DNA of 64,000 bases from Pseudohongiella sp. (GTDB taxonomy: Bacteria > Pseudomonadota > Gammaproteobacteria > Pseudomonadales > Pseudohongiellaceae). Within the stretch, counting starts at the first letter, position 1; each line of letters begins with the position of its first letter. Position numbers and translations under genes: made by a program. The notes under the pieces were generated by a model that searched no databases, was not told where the DNA came from, and was given only the letters and a program-made list of their open reading frames with translations. Shown here one piece after another: positions 2,225-8,390 of the stretch. The stretch covers positions 1 to 64,000 of the forward strand of contig JAUSCD010000004.1 in the NCBI GenBank assembly GCA_030651695.1. Reading direction: 5' to 3'.

Positions 2225-3787
2225 TCATCCGTTTTCAGTCACCAGAAACTGTCCCATCATGCCGCGGTCTTCATGCTCCAGTGTGTGGCAGTGGTACATG
2301 TAGGTATGCATATCGTCTGCAAAGTCGGTAAAGGAAACGAGTACGCGCACTGTCTCACGTCCATGAAGATGCACGGTGTCTTTGTAGCCAGTCTCCTGGG
2401 CAGGCGGCGGCACACCATTGCGATCCAGCACGCGGAACTGACTGCCATGAATATGGAATGGATGCACCATGGGAGTGTCATTAATCACCTCCCAGATTTC
2501 AGTGTCGCCCAATTTAACGCGCTCGTTGATATGGCTCATGGTCATGACACGGCCATTAATGGAAAAATGGCCGCCTCCATAGCCACCACCCTGACCGGTG
2601 CGATTACCCCGACCAGGCCCTTGTCCACTGCCGCTGCGTGATCCGAAGCCCATATTCAGTCGCATGCGACGGGTGCGTATCCCCATGTCAGCACTGACAG
2701 CCGGTAATGTGGCCAGCAAGCCGGGTACCGGCGGCAAACGCTCAAGGCCGCTCTGAGGCCGGATTTCCATGACGTCAAAAGACTCACCATGCATGGCACG
2801 CATCAGCTCGCTGAACGCACCGGGAAATACCGGGAAATGGTTCTCTGACGGTTCACTGCGTAAAATAACCGGGTTGCCGTCGCTGACATCGACCAGCAAT
2901 TCCACGCGCTCACCCGGTGTCACCATGAGCCGCCGCAGTGGCACCGGTTTATCAAGTAAGCCACCATCGCTGGCGATCTGCAGGAATTCGCGCCCGTCGT
3001 TAAATGCCAGATTAAACAACCTGGCGTTTGAGCCGTTGAGAATCCGTAACCGAATTTTATCGGTGGTCGCTTCGAAAAAGGGTGACACGGTACCATTGAT
3101 CACCATTATGTCACCATGCTGGCCGATCATGATGTCACCATATCGGGACATATAATCAAAACTGCCATCGCGGTTAAAGCGCCGGTCCTGCAGAATCAGG
3201 GGAATATCATCAATACCATAACGTGATGGCAAATCCAGACTGTCACTGACATCATCATCCAGAATCATCATGCCTGCCAGGCCATGGTAAACCTGCGGGC
3301 CGGTTTTGTGCATGGCGTGTGAGTGGTACCACAACGTCGCCGCCGGTTGTCTGGCATCAAATACCGGATTCCAGCTGCCGCCATCAGCAATCGATTGCAT
3401 GGGGCCGCCATCGAAACGTTGTGGTACATGCAAGCCATGCCAGTGCAGCACAGACTCTTCGCCGATGCGGTTGTGAACCTGTATATCGAGAATATCTCCG
3501 CGCCGGTAGCGCAATGTTGGTCCCAGATAGCTGCCGTTGATACCCAGGGTCGGGGTATCGGTATCCAGCACAAACCTTGTCTGGCCTTTCTGCAAAGTGA
3601 GGTCGAAATGTCGTCGCCGCAGCCCTCCCTCTTGCTGAATCAGCGAACCACTATCCAGAGGCGGAATCTGCAGCGGATTTATAAAGCTCCCGCTGGTCTG
3701 CGCACGCGATATCAGCGGCATGGACATGGCACCGGCCGTGCCGATACCAAACATTTTCAGAAGCTGACGGCGTGAAACTGAACTCAT
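2225..3787 (-). CDS. Tat-exported multicopper oxidase (CueO/laccase-like)
   Basis: The 520-residue product begins with a Tat signal (SRRQLLK, a hydrophobic stretch, then RAQ), consistent with export of a folded, copper-loaded enzyme. All copper motifs are visible: HWHG at 115-118, HSH at 155-157, HPFHIH at 442-447 and HCHTLEHEDRGM at 499-510. The type 1 copper would be held by H442, C500, H505 and an axial M510. Such enzymes oxidise Cu(I), Fe(II), Mn(II) or phenols with O2. A Gly/Arg/Ser-rich, flexible insertion at about 378-406 sits before the last cupredoxin domain, where CueO has its Met-rich segment. The start codon overlaps the stop of the upstream mosA-like gene by four bases (ATGA), so translation is probably coupled. 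Confidence 0.9.
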   Translation of the reverse strand: MSSVSRRQLLKMFGIGTAGAMSMPLISRAQTSGSFINPLQIPPLDSGSLIQQEGGLRRRHFDLTLQKGQTRFVLDTDTPTLGINGSYLGPTLRYRRGDILDIQVHNRIGEESVLHWHGLHVPQRFDGGPMQSIADGGSWNPVFDARQPAATLWYHSHAMHKTGPQVYHGLAGMMILDDDVSDSLDLPSRYGIDDIPLILQDRRFNRDGSFDYMSRYGDIMIGQHGDIMVINGTVSPFFEATTDKIRLRILNGSNARLFNLAFNDGREFLQIASDGGLLDKPVPLRRLMVTPGERVELLVDVSDGNPVILRSEPSENHFPVFPGAFSELMRAMHGESFDVMEIRPQSGLERLPPVPGLLATLPAVSADMGIRTRRMRLNMGFGSRSGSGQGPGRGNRTGQGGGYGGGHFSINGRVMTMSHINERVKLGDTEIWEVINDTPMVHPFHIHGSQFRVLDRNGVPPPAQETGYKDTVHLHGRETVRVLVSFTDFADDMHTYMYHCHTLEHEDRGMMGQFLVTENG

Positions 3788-4635
3788 AGTGATGACGGCG
3801 CCTGAGCAGAAGCCCGCTTGTTACTGTAAATGATACTGCCCACATGTTCCCCGGCCAGCGCACGCGCCAGCAATTCAGGCTGTCTTCCATCTATGATCTG
3901 GAACTCATGCACCAGACGTGCGGTATCAAGAATATCCAGCATGATTTCGTCGAATGGCAGCGTTTTTAAATCCAGTTCGCGCAGCTCGTCTGTACTGATG
4001 CGCGGAATGAACTCGGCGGCGTCTTCAAGAAAGGGATCTGCTGTGTAAAGACCTTGTACATCTTTCACCAGCACCACGCTGCGACAACCGAAACACTCGG
4101 CCAGAATCAGGCAGCCTGAATCTGTACGGTGTGCGGGAATACGGCCAATTGCCGGCGGATGCTCCCACAAAGAATATGGCGGCACACCGTTAAAGATGAC
4201 ACCCGGCACCGAATGGATGAACATGGGCAGCAAATGACCGAACATGGCGGGCGGAATCGCAACCACACCATGTGACGCAAGCAGTGTACCGAGTATGTGC
4301 GCGTTGCCCAGCGCATCGGCAGCTGACAGTTCCGCCAGCACACCTGTTGGTAAACCCAGATCGAGACCGACTGAAAAAACGTGGCGCGAGCGCGCACCGC
4401 AACCCACACCCAGAATCAGCTTGTTTTCCTGCAGGGCATCGCCCAGCGCTTTTATCAGCGGATTGACCGTGGCTGACCCGGCTTCAAGAATGGAACGACC
4501 ACCGATTTTTACGACGTGCACCGTCGGCAGCATACGCACGACAGGTGTTTCTGTATCTGCCATCACACGTTTGTCGAGCAGACTTTCGCGCGCCAGAAAT
4601 GATTGCATATGGTGCTGTCTGGAATCGTTTTTCAT
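3784..4635 (-). CDS. Molybdenum storage protein subunit, MosA-like
   Basis: The 283-residue product belongs to the UMP-kinase-like amino-acid-kinase fold. It has VVKIGGRS, a glycine loop GVGCGARSRHVFSVGLDLGLP-like segment, HRTDSG, and KDVQGLYTADP. These match the subunits of the molybdenum storage protein of Azotobacter, in particular the ARHVFSVGLDLGLP stretch of MosA as I recall it. The known protein is an alpha3-beta3 hexamer that uses ATP to pack molybdate or tungstate as polyoxometalate clusters. The gene follows its paralogue by 2 bases and overlaps the multicopper oxidase by 4, so the three form one operon. A different oxyanion or a nucleotide function is possible, but the paired arrangement favours storage. 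Confidence 0.8.
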   Translation of the reverse strand: MKNDSRQHHMQSFLARESLLDKRVMADTETPVVRMLPTVHVVKIGGRSILEAGSATVNPLIKALGDALQENKLILGVGCGARSRHVFSVGLDLGLPTGVLAELSAADALGNAHILGTLLASHGVVAIPPAMFGHLLPMFIHSVPGVIFNGVPPYSLWEHPPAIGRIPAHRTDSGCLILAECFGCRSVVLVKDVQGLYTADPFLEDAAEFIPRISTDELRELDLKTLPFDEIMLDILDTARLVHEFQIIDGRQPELLARALAGEHVGSIIYSNKRASAQAPSSL

Positions 4636-4637
4636 AA

Positions 4638-5453
4638 TCAGTCCGCTGTAATGATGGTGCCAACCGCTTCGCCGTTAAGCGCACGCGTCAGATTGCCGGG
4701 TACCAGACCGTTGATGATCTGGATGCTGCGTCGGTGCTGGGCGTTCTGCATCATTTCCAACACACTGTGTTCAACCACCACGTCGGGCAGATCCAGGGCC
4801 AGCAGTTCAGCTGCGGTGATCTTCGGGATAAATGTTGCGTGTTTGTCTTTTTTCGGATCAGCGGTGTAAAGACCATTTTCGTCTTTCACATAAATCATGG
4901 AACGCGTACCAAAGGTTTCACTGATCAGCCAGGTGCCTGTATCTGTTCTGTTGGGCGGAAGTCTGCCGATGGTGGGATTACGCTGCCAGAATGTGTACGG
5001 CGGCATGCCAAAAAATATCACGGCCTGACGCTCTGCCAGATACAAAGGCAACTGTGCAAACTGGATTGGCTCAATAAACGGAATACCCTGATCAGCCAAC
5101 AGATAGTGCAGCATGCGCGCATTCTGCATGCTGACGAAGGTTCCCAGTACACTCAGTACGCCGGTTGGCATACCCAGCTCAACGCCCACGCTGTAGGCAT
5201 GTCGCGCGCGAGTCCCGGCTCCGGTGCCAATAATCATTTTGTGCTGAGGCAGATTTTGTTTTATTTCCTCGATCAGCGGATACACCGCGGCGCGGCCCCG
5301 GTCGATAAAACTTTGACCGCCAATTTTGATGACGTTCGCGTCCGGGAGAATTTGCAGTCCCGGCTGGATGTCGGTACGTGCCAGCAGTTCGCGGTCCGTC
5401 AGACTGCCTGTCACCAGCGCTTCGCCCAGCTCACTCAACAGCGATTCTTTCAT
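4638..5453 (-). CDS. Molybdenum storage protein subunit, MosB-like
   Basis: The 271-residue product closely resembles MosB, the partner subunit of Azotobacter molybdenum storage protein (about 270 residues). Recognisable parts are VIKIGGQS (about 42-48), GTGAGTRARH (76-85), MPPYTFW, RTDTG, KDENGLYTADP and the C-terminal NGLVPGNLTRAL with GTIIT. ATG 5453 is chosen because AAGG lies 7 bases upstream; a TTG at 5483 would add ten unlike residues. It is the first of two paralogous kinase-fold genes, as expected for a heterohexamer. It starts 37 bases after mnmH ends. No nitrogenase gene is in view, so stored Mo or W would presumably serve molybdopterin enzymes; that is inference. Confidence 0.83.
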   Translation of the reverse strand: MKESLLSELGEALVTGSLTDRELLARTDIQPGLQILPDANVIKIGGQSFIDRGRAAVYPLIEEIKQNLPQHKMIIGTGAGTRARHAYSVGVELGMPTGVLSVLGTFVSMQNARMLHYLLADQGIPFIEPIQFAQLPLYLAERQAVIFFGMPPYTFWQRNPTIGRLPPNRTDTGTWLISETFGTRSMIYVKDENGLYTADPKKDKHATFIPKITAAELLALDLPDVVVEHSVLEMMQNAQHRRSIQIINGLVPGNLTRALNGEAVGTIITAD

Positions 5454-5490: not shown

Positions 5491-6588
5491 TCAAATGTGT
5501 GCTGAATTTAAATACCTCAGCACCTCACTGTACTCGCCCTGAAACACCACCCTGCCCTCATGACGCTGCCATTGCCAGTCGTACATGGGGTCGTAGTAAT
5601 CGCGCAGCAAGCGCCTTATCCACTCGCGATGCAAAGAAGGATCACCCGCACGGTGTGCGTCTATGGCGGTCTCCATCATCTGTGACAATTCCACATAACG
5701 ATCGCCGCCCAGGCGTTTCTGCACGCGCTTGAGTGAATCGCGCAGATCATACACAAATGCGTCGAAACCGGCAGCCTCGTCACCCAGCTCCTGCTGCCAT
5801 TCAGACGATTTTCGCAGAATGTAGTTGAGCCATGAATGTTCGGTGCGCGACTCCAGATCACTGTCCAGTCGCACCAGCGGCGCCCGGCCCATCGCTTCCC
5901 GCAATTCAAGTGGTACGGCACAACGACCGATCAACCGGCTTTCATCTTCCACAACAATGGGTTTTTCTGGTGATCTGTGTAGTTGTTTGAGCATCGCGAT
6001 GATCAGACGGTTTTCAAAATCAATCTGCGAAGGCTGTTCGGTTGCGCGTTTACCAAAAGCACTGCCACGATGATTGGCCAGCGCTTCCAGATCAATAGTG
6101 CCCGGCACAGCATTTAGCAATTCTGTTTTTGCGGCACCTGTATGACCTGCAAGCACCAGTAGTTTGTTGCTGGCGCAGATTTTATCCAGCTGCTCCAGTA
6201 AAAACCGGCGCATGGCTTTGTAACCACCGGTCACACGTGGATAGTCACAACCGGCCTCATGCAGCCATTGCTGACAGATTTGTGAGCGCAGTCCACCGCG
6301 GAAGCAATACAGATATCCATCGGGATTTTGCTCTGCAAAATCAACCCACGCCTGCACGCGCTGTGCTTTGACATCGCCATTGACCAGATCATGTCCAAGC
6401 TTTATTGCGGCTTGCTGACCTTGTTCTTTGTAACAGGTACCAACCTGCTGGCGTTCACTGTCAGTCATTAACGGCAGGTTGACGGTATTCGGAAACGCAC
6501 CGCGTGTAAATTCCACCGGAGCTCGCGAATCAATCAAGGGCGTGTCATTCAGAAACAGACTTAAAAAATCTTCGGTGTCTGCGCGCAT
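5491..6588 (-). CDS. mnmH: tRNA 2-selenouridine synthase
   Basis: MnmH (SelU/YbbB) replaces sulfur by selenium in 5-substituted 2-thiouridine at the wobble position of tRNAs for Lys, Glu and Gln, using selenophosphate and a geranylated intermediate. The 365-residue product has an N-terminal rhodanese domain with its catalytic cysteine in YLYCFRGGLRS (C95), followed by a P-loop domain (AGHTGAAKT). Length matches the E. coli protein (364). The start chosen is ATG 6588, one base after the selD stop; a TTG at 6597 would overlap selD. Its selenium donor is made by selD next door, so the pair forms a complete selenouridine module. No selenocysteine-insertion gene is in the window. Confidence 0.93.
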   Translation of the reverse strand: MRADTEDFLSLFLNDTPLIDSRAPVEFTRGAFPNTVNLPLMTDSERQQVGTCYKEQGQQAAIKLGHDLVNGDVKAQRVQAWVDFAEQNPDGYLYCFRGGLRSQICQQWLHEAGCDYPRVTGGYKAMRRFLLEQLDKICASNKLLVLAGHTGAAKTELLNAVPGTIDLEALANHRGSAFGKRATEQPSQIDFENRLIIAMLKQLHRSPEKPIVVEDESRLIGRCAVPLELREAMGRAPLVRLDSDLESRTEHSWLNYILRKSSEWQQELGDEAAGFDAFVYDLRDSLKRVQKRLGGDRYVELSQMMETAIDAHRAGDPSLHREWIRRLLRDYYDPMYDWQWQRHEGRVVFQGEYSEVLRYLNSAHI

Positions 6589-6589
6589 A

Positions 6590-7645
6590 TCACACAAGCC
6601 GTACGCGCTGCTGCTGGCCTGATGCTGGCAACAATCGGCCTATAGGTTTAATCAAAGACTCAGCAACTCCGGCATCAGCCAATGCTTTTTCGAATTCCGC
6701 GCGTGCGGAAGGTCTTACTGCCATCAACAATCCGCCAGAAGTTTGCGGATCGCACAACAACGCTTTTTGTGCGGGCTCCAGTGGTGCCAGTTTGTGTCCG
6801 TAGCTGTCGAAGTTACGATGAGTTCCACCTGGTACACATCCCTGCTCAATGTAGTCCGGCACCGGCGCCAGCACCGGGATGGCAGAAAAGTCCAGCTCGG
6901 CATCCAGACCGCTGCCTTCACACATTTCCAGCAAGTGGCCCATCAGAGCAAAACCGGTAACATCGGTCATGGCGGTGATGTCTTTCATAGCGGATAAGGT
7001 CATGCCGGGCGTATTAAGCTGGCACATGACATCGCGCGCAAGGAATTCATGTTCGGGCTTTAACTTGCCCTGCTTTTGCGCGGTGGTCAGTACACCTACA
7101 CCAAGCGGTTTGCTCAGATATAACAGGCAACCCGCTTCTGCTGTGTTGTTTTGTTTTAACTGGTCTTTGCCAACAATGCCGGTAACCGCCAAACCAAACA
7201 CCGGCTCAGGGCAGTCAATACTGTGTCCGCCGGCCAGCATAATGCCGGCATCGGAGCAGGCCTGGCGTCCGCCATCCACCACCTGTGCCGCGATCTCTGC
7301 CGGCAATGTGTTAACAGGCCAGCCCAGAATGGCGATGGCCATCAATGGTCGGCCACCCATGGCGTAAATATCACTGATGGCATTGGTGGCGGCGATGCGA
7401 CCAAAATCAAAGGCATCGTCGGCAATCGGCATAAAAAAATCGGTGGTGCTCAGGATGACCTGGCCATTGCCAATGTCGTAAGCCGCTGCGTCATCCTTGC
7501 TGCTGTTTCCCACCAGCAACGCCGGGTCGGTAAAAAACTCGCGTTGTGAACTCAGGATTTTGTCCAGCACGGCGGGCGCAATTTTGCAGCCGCAGCCGGC
7601 GCCATGGCTGTAGGCGGTCAATTTTACTGGTGACGCGGATGACAT
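6590..7645 (-). CDS. selD: Selenide, water dikinase (selenophosphate synthase)
   Basis: SelD makes selenophosphate from selenide and ATP, the activated selenium donor for 2-selenouridine and selenocysteine. The 351-residue product starts with [10 protein letters not shown], where C18 and K21 correspond to the catalytic Cys17 and Lys20 of E. coli SelD. This is the Cys form, not the Sec form. Downstream it has the [18 protein letters not shown] segment ([11 protein letters not shown]) and a C-terminal ATP-binding PurM-like half. ATG 7645 is chosen; the frame is open to 7789 but the extra 48 residues do not resemble the family. The gene is divergent from gmk and runs directly into mnmH. Confidence 0.94.
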
Positions 7646-7736
7646 TCGCTGGTGGCTCCTGAGCTGGGTTACTTGCTGGTTACTAAACGGGCGACAGTAT
7701 AACGTGGATAGACACCCGTTAGCGGATTGACTATAG

Positions 7737-8390
<654 letters not shown>

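Follow-up and report, generated by a model that had tools for sequence, protein, structure and literature searches.

The closest described system is the molybdenum storage protein (MoSto) of Azotobacter vinelandii, which is built from two homologous subunits, MosA (alpha) and MosB (beta), and represented by PDB entries 2OGX and 4F6T. The available part of one source treats it as a speciality of some nitrogen fixers (PMC9769095), and according to that of another, protein databases contain no known homologue of it (PMC6448029). KEGG has an entry for mosAB, which a metagenome study employs according to its accessible text (PMC13188454), so mosAB-type genes are annotated in bulk. Here, a related gene pair is described at 3784..5453 of a 64,000-nucleotide stretch of a Pseudohongiella sp. 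genome (contig JAUSCD010000004.1, positions 1 to 64,000), referred to as the window. The pair is read as part of a MoSto subfamily that is widespread and whose cage chemistry is changed, probably serving as a general molybdenum reserve.

Identity of the Two Subunits

A sequence-only reading of the window had proposed two adjacent genes for a molybdenum storage protein at these positions and had named several kinase-fold motifs in both products. The adjacency was confirmed, with both genes on the minus strand and a gap of 2 bases between them, and every one of the motifs was located in the translations: KIGG, GTGAGTRAR, RTDTG and GLYTADP in the product of the first gene (P0002), and KIGG, GVGCGARSR, RTDSG and GLYTADP in that of the second (P0001). 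The gene order, on which that reading was silent, is beta followed by alpha, as in Azospirillum.

When all PDB sequences were searched, the best match of P0002 was MoSto beta (2ogx_B, 311 bits, E 4.4e-92). P0001 matched MoSto beta with 230 bits (E 3e-67) and MoSto alpha with 189 bits (E 1e-54). Kinases of known structure other than MoSto reached at most 36.3 bits against either protein, and MoSto leads by more than 190 bits for each. The homology of both proteins to MoSto is directly supported by these scores.

For comparison across bacteria, the best 80 of 363 relatives were taken by similarity to the window beta protein; they span 13 named phyla, and all frequencies given for these loci apply to this set and not to the whole family. 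An alpha-type gene was found downstream of the beta gene at 76 of the 80 loci, interrupted at one of them (L084). Of the other four, two (L101, L102) break off within the first gene, and L104 and L110 yielded no alpha gene. At L084, from Bradyrhizobium, the alpha gene is split over two frames (6812-7658). The planctomycete locus L104 carries a methyltransferase gene and a beta gene (6070-7813), with no alpha gene found in the 7 kb downstream.

A tree was built from 67 sequences, comprising the pairs from 30 of the 80 loci, the window pair, those of Azotobacter and Azospirillum, and a UMP kinase from the window's own genome as outgroup; near-complete MosA and MosB sequences were extracted from alignments. 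It was a quick tree with SH-aLRT support only, and its root is unsure, given the very long outgroup branch. A branch with support of 100 separated all first-gene proteins together with MosB from the second-gene proteins, MosA and the outgroup. MosB was nested among the first-gene proteins, beside the beta protein of an Acidobacteriota pair (L108; support 98). The branch leading to MosA was long (1.28), and MosA fell outside the remaining alpha sequences along with the second-gene protein of L108 and the outgroup (support 98).

By this placement, P0002 is the MosB (beta) orthologue, and P0001 is most simply read as the MosA (alpha) orthologue despite its better match to beta. The possibility that P0001 is a second beta subunit, as its best PDB match would suggest, was rejected in view of its place in the tree and of the MosA residues that it has and that are absent from MosB (see below). 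Judged from the tree, the Azotobacter and Azospirillum pair seems to be a branch that has changed fast within a larger family.

Residues for Loading and for Cluster Binding

Residue counts were made over 80 beta and 75 alpha sequences, some of them shortened by contig ends; the interrupted alpha gene of L084 was excluded, and the four loci named above without a complete first gene or without a second gene contributed no alpha sequence.

The equivalents of beta Lys42, Met149, Lys189 and Asp190, which we take to be the pump residues, were present in all 80 beta sequences and in the window beta as well. According to Bruenle and others, writing in PNAS in 2019, molybdate is reportedly pressed through a gate formed by beta Met149, and the alpha arm is said to close over the ATP bound by beta. 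His10 and Arg17 of the alpha arm were found in all 75 alpha sequences, His114 in 72 and Glu159 in 74. All four residues occur in both MosA and the window alpha, and none of them in MosB.

The known cluster ligands gave a different picture. In the parts available of two sources, alpha Glu129 and His156 are ligands of the Mo8 cluster and alpha His140 is a ligand of a W3 cluster (PMC4504029; PMC8154434); in PMC8154434 a figure legend prints Glu126 where the text has Glu129. The window alpha has Pro, Phe and Ser, respectively, where MosA has Glu129, His140 and His156. Among the relatives, Glu was retained at position 129 in only three alpha sequences (L109, L111, L112), with Pro in 72/75; position 140 was Phe in 68/75 and position 156 Ser in 64/75, and His was found at neither of these two (0/75 each). 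The sequence-only reading had made its storage assignment depend on the cluster-binding residues, and on this check the alpha subunit fails.

Other residues are conserved nearby, namely alpha His134 and His159 and beta Glu128, the last aligned with Azotobacter alpha Glu129 (Table 1). In addition, the kinase Lys and Asp were each kept in 74/75 alpha sequences; the corresponding residues are Glu and Asn in Azotobacter MosA, and Glu and Asp in Azospirillum MosA. In the sequences compared, conservation covers the loading residues but not the known cluster ligands. Because the ligands are replaced and alpha retains the kinase Lys and Asp, the clusters and the ATP stoichiometry probably differ from those of Azotobacter. 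By descent and by its predicted pump residues the pair is a member of the MoSto lineage, and by its ligands it is not of the Azotobacter type.

Distribution and Gene Neighbourhoods

For the neighbourhood analysis, open reading frames of at least 80 aa were taken as genes, and neighbours were counted within up to 7 kb using models built from the loci themselves; the neighbour families were confirmed by profile on one operon (L044). A methyltransferase gene was found at 52 of the 80 loci, ModA at 36, ModB at 42, and ModA or ModB at 45. An ABC-2 permease gene occurred at 20 loci and a multicopper oxidase gene at 23, the latter in six phyla; two of the 23 oxidases (L043, L057), lying at or close to the end of a contig, are shortened. 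At the 34 loci whose flanks are complete, the corresponding numbers were 22 for the methyltransferase, 22 for mod genes and 12 for the oxidase. Recurrent linkage to ModABC genes is directly observed in this set.

The same order of genes, namely methyltransferase, MosB, MosA, DrrA-like, DrrB-like, ModA, ModB and ModC, was found at four loci (L044, L047, L055, L103). The binding protein of L044 passed two ModA cut-offs, and models for the tungstate-binding WtpA stayed far below theirs. At a locus from Arenicella (L099, 2812-11456), genes for multicopper oxidase, methyltransferase, MosB, MosA, ModA, ModB and ModC follow one another on one strand. The oxidase and methyltransferase frames of L062 overlap by 8 bases when the first start codon is used.

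Homologues of the methyltransferase and the exporter permease were found neither in the window nor in the modABC stretch of the same genome, where the exporter ATPase query matched only ModC.

Two observations concern cyanobacteria. A metagenome-assembled genome of Trichodesmium (L094, 2243-7650) carries a methyltransferase gene, both storage genes and a ModB-ModC-like fusion; nifD over the cut-off was not found in that assembly. A review suggests, in its available part, that Trichodesmium may have a molybdenum storage mechanism (PMC3440940). In all 11 cyanobacterial loci the storage genes have nearby a gene for a small protein, some 110 residues long (e.g., L096, 4967-5299), and the one such protein tested had no Pfam or NCBIfam match.

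Nitrogenase and Molybdenum Enzymes in the Host Genome

The genome that contains the window comprises 3.86 Mb in 35 contigs. The whole pair was present in 5 of 95 genomes searched, this one included, and in 2 of 15 genomes of its genus. Some match at E 0.001 was obtained in 12 of the 95 genomes; in the seven without the whole pair, the matches are fragments (G047) or weak and resemble other kinases. In a sample of the class, 5 of 369 gave a match at E 1e-30, again with the window's genome among them.

Nitrogenase-like proteins (PF00148) were detected in none of the five pair-bearing genomes searched. The sequence-only reading had noted the lack of a nitrogenase setting in view, and this now extends to the whole genome. 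The NifH family model (PF00142) matched the genome at five places, with four of the matches exceeding the Pfam cut-off, and one of the five lies at a parA-like gene near 61 kb of the window. These were taken as other ATPases of the same superfamily because of their low scores (22.7-44.9 bits), their mostly short stretches and a control search that likewise matched 14 of 14 genomes. Among the host genomes of the 80 loci, nifD over the cut-off was found in 13 (9 of 50 and 4 of 30), belonging to cyanobacteria, Bradyrhizobium and one methanotroph; the remaining 67 had none over the cut-off, many of them being metagenome-assembled and possibly incomplete. The lack of nif genes is therefore not peculiar to the window's genome. 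A role of the pair as a nitrogenase accessory was rejected on these two results (PF00148 in 0/5, nifD in only 13/80).

ModA was found in all five pair-bearing genomes, and the copy in the window's genome is carried by contig 9, together with genes that resemble ModB and ModC. The molybdoenzyme families of this genome include four PF02738 proteins, two PF00174 proteins and one PF00384 protein; the last, read as 960 residues, resembles assimilatory nitrate reductase, a name given by eye only. As the genome holds ModA and several molybdoenzymes, the earlier suggestion that the cargo serves molybdopterin enzymes is reasonable.

The Adjoining Multicopper Oxidase

The pair is followed by a multicopper oxidase gene, unmentioned in the sequence-only reading, whose start codon overlaps the stop codon of the alpha gene as ATGA. 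Given this overlap and the 2-base gap within the pair, the mosB, mosA and oxidase genes are very likely co-translated, as far as the gene layout tells. The HWH, HSH, HIH and HCH motifs are present in the oxidase, and its leader, SRRQLLK, is twin-arginine-like by eye. The score of the protein against the NCBIfam CueO equivalog model was below the cut-off (446 vs 525 bits).

The frequency of an oxidase gene at the full-flank loci (12/34) was compared with an expectation by chance of 0.28 loci, derived from 101 PF07731 matches in approximately 199 Mb of the 34 host genomes, with rounded genome sizes and with neighbours called by a different model. The 12 loci are not independent, several being from gammaproteobacteria and Okeania. 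The presence and absence of the oxidase requires at least nine changes on the beta tree, and the probability of even five or more oxidase loci by chance is about 7e-6. Among the close relatives of the window, the pair occurs in three different contexts. Seven close-relative loci continue beyond the pair, and in six of them (L033, L034, L037, L038, L039 and L041; not L035) the oxidase gene adjoins it, on either strand. No paper linking molybdenum storage to multicopper oxidases was found among the open-licence papers listed, which does not prove its absence in print.

In a genome of the same family as that of the window (G047; L147, 5326-7288), both storage genes are decayed fragments directly upstream of an open oxidase frame. 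As the fragments adjoin an open oxidase gene, the pair was lost there and the oxidase kept.

Other Features of the Window

The features are collected in Table 1. The selU/mnmH gene lies directly upstream of the P0002 gene with a gap of 37 bases; it is probably only a neighbour, perhaps on the same transcript. A selenium link through selD and selU was considered and rejected, since their homologues occurred at one locus alone (L033) of the 80, and their proximity is regarded as a neighbour effect. When the sequence was scanned for promoters and terminators, the number of sites was similar to that in shuffled sequence. Between 49000 and 64000, the window carries glmS, glmU, atp genes, parB- and parA-like genes, rsmG and mnmG, by eye the usual origin-proximal set. 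As this end of the window looks origin-proximal, the storage genes appear to lie in a core chromosomal region.

Table 1. Features of the window, listed in transcription order of the minus strand.
Feature	Position	Strand	Remarks
selD, selenide water dikinase	6590..7789	minus	NCBIfam SelD 541 bits
selU/mnmH, tRNA 2-selenouridine synthase	5491..6597	minus	NCBIfam MnmH 522 bits
mosB-like gene, beta-type MoSto subunit (P0002, 271 aa)	ATG 5453 to stop 4638	minus	first of the pair
beta Glu128 codon (aligned with Azotobacter alpha Glu129)	5070..5072	minus	Glu in 75/80 beta sequences
beta Met150 codon (= MosB Met149)	5004..5006	minus	Met in 80/80 beta sequences
mosA-like gene, alpha-type MoSto subunit (P0001, 283 aa)	ATG 4635 to stop 3784	minus	second of the pair
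alpha Pro128 codon (MosA cluster ligand Glu129)	4252..4254	minus	Pro in 72/75 alpha sequences
alpha His134 codon	4234..4236	minus	His in 72/75 alpha sequences; Asp or Ser in MosA
alpha Ser155 codon (MosA cluster ligand His156)	4171..4173	minus	Ser in 64/75 alpha sequences
alpha His159 codon	4159..4161	minus	His in 71/75 alpha sequences; Phe in MosA
multicopper oxidase gene, 520 aa	2225..3787	minus	CueO 446 bits; Pfam Cu-oxidase_2 and _3

Proposed Mechanism and Alternative Explanations

Taken as a whole, the explanation of the pair as a MoSto-type cage storing molybdenum for molybdopterin enzymes is considered likely. P0002 and P0001, both with the amino acid kinase fold, would assemble into an (alpha-beta)3 cage. 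Molybdate would enter the cell through ModABC, and the beta subunit would bind it together with ATP and drive it into the cage, while the N-terminal arm of alpha would close the site and alpha would line the cavity. Inside, polynuclear clusters of Mo-O (possibly W-O) would hold the oxyanion until it is needed, with the conserved beta Glu128 and alpha His134/His159 set perhaps standing in for the covalent ligands of Azotobacter. The molybdenum released would serve molybdopterin enzymes and not nitrogenase in Pseudohongiella.

The exported multicopper oxidase may be part of the same module and act before uptake by ModABC. CueO is known to oxidise catechol siderophores. Catecholates bind Mo(VI) strongly according to the available part of one source (PMC7356571), and oxidation of Cu(I) by CueO is described in the accessible part of another (PMC9426971). 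On these three grounds, it is plausible as a working idea that the oxidase frees molybdate from catechol-type ligands or handles copper that antagonises molybdenum.

Several results weigh against this explanation. The Azotobacter Mo8 and W3 ligands are gone from the window alpha and from nearly all relatives, and the alpha sequences are not established as one clade, the root lying near MosA on the very long outgroup branch. Storage does not account for the methyltransferase and the DrrAB-like exporter that lie beside the genes in other phyla. Mod genes are missing from 12 and the oxidase from 22 of the 34 full-flank loci, and in the window's genome ModABC lies on a different contig from the pair. 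Finally, the distribution is patchy, both in the genomes searched (5/95) and in the class sample (5/369).

Part of this evidence would suit a two-subunit kinase of a small-molecule pathway, for which the methyltransferase, the DrrAB-like exporter and the oxidase would provide further steps and with which molybdate uptake would be only co-regulated. The kinase Lys and Asp retained in almost every alpha sequence, and lost in MosA, fit such an enzyme, as do the missing cluster ligands and the frequency of methyltransferase (52/80) and ABC-2 permease genes (20/80). It is nevertheless unlikely, as the tree and the residues put both subunits with MoSto, the equivalent of beta Met149 is invariant, ModA or ModB is present at 45 of the 80 loci, and the window and its own modABC stretch lack detectable homologues of the methyltransferase and the exporter permease.

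If the pair forms a storage cage, its cargo might be tungstate or another oxyanion in place of molybdate. MoSto is also able to take up tungsten according to the available part of one paper (PMC6448029), and the ligand set differs from that of Azotobacter. The binding protein of L044, however, was recognised by ModA models and not by those of WtpA, and the window's own genome holds enzyme families of the molybdenum type, which leaves this cargo improbable. Least probable of all, to the point of being negligible, is a misread pair of ordinary UMP kinases or other amino acid kinases. Such a misreading could arise because the Pfam AA_kinase domain is matched by both proteins and because Azospirillum MosB is itself annotated as uridine kinase or UMP kinase. 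In the comparison with the UMP kinase models TIGR02075 and TIGR02076, however, the scores were only 47.4 and 56.3 bits, about a third of the cut-off of 158.05, and for P0002 also 34.5 bits against a cut-off of 243.9. The genome carries six further AA-kinase genes, MoSto leads among known structures, and the scores already refute this alternative. The sequence-only reading had placed the pair in the MoSto lineage and had pointed to UMP kinase or acetylglutamate kinase membership as the danger; scores and tree gave no sign of it, and the lineage assignment holds.

Beyond the storage cage itself, a broader picture may be drawn, which is tentative and, in all its parts together, rather doubtful. 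The loci would represent an undescribed, phylum-spanning module for acquisition and storage of molybdenum, composed of varying subsets of multicopper oxidase, methyltransferase, MosB, MosA, DrrAB-like exporter and ModABC. Its cage would use cluster ligands other than those of Azotobacter, both subunits would hydrolyse ATP, the oxidase would liberate molybdate outside the cytoplasm, and Azotobacter MoSto would be a derived offshoot with a rebuilt alpha cavity.

Comparison with Known Systems

Searches of open-licence papers brought up no description of the changed ligands, of the order of branching or of the oxidase linkage, and nothing on how the family is distributed apart from the papers cited here; this does not prove their absence in print. 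In the light of the present comparison, Azotobacter MoSto appears as one branch, and a specialised version, of a family that reaches into 13 named phyla and whose host genomes mostly showed no nifD. The relatives are a natural source of cages with differing interiors for polyoxometalate chemistry, and they raise testable questions, namely how molybdenum is buffered in cells without nitrogenase and why a copper oxidase often adjoins a molybdenum store.

Compared with UMP kinase (PyrH), the window pair shares the fold family and shows weak similarity; the branch of the outgroup is very long. Azotobacter MoSto resembles the window pair in its two homologous subunits, in the pump residues of beta and the arm residues of alpha, and in the subunit-wise grouping in the tree. 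In contrast to Azotobacter, the window alpha lacks Glu129, His140 and His156 and has His134, His159 and the kinase Lys and Asp, the Glu129 position is occupied by Glu in the window beta, the window's genome yielded no nitrogenase, and an oxidase gene follows the pair.

The plasmid-borne MosB and MosA of Azospirillum (pAB510e and others) share the order of beta then alpha with the window. They are, however, near-Azotobacter in type, with 57% identity to the window beta and all three alpha ligands kept, and no oxidase or mod gene is annotated alongside them in the two plasmids examined, whose gene tables are possibly incomplete. On pAB510e (L122, 5989-7646) MosB is annotated as uridine monophosphate kinase, and on other Azospirillum plasmids as uridine kinase.

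A further group comprises the uncharacterised pairs of methanotrophs, cyanobacteria, Acidobacteriota, Bacteroidota and others (L042-L112). They belong to the same subfamily as the window pair, with 62-78% identity in beta and the same residue pattern in nearly all. In contrast to the window, where these genes are absent locally, they often have a methyltransferase, a DrrAB-like exporter or ModABC alongside.

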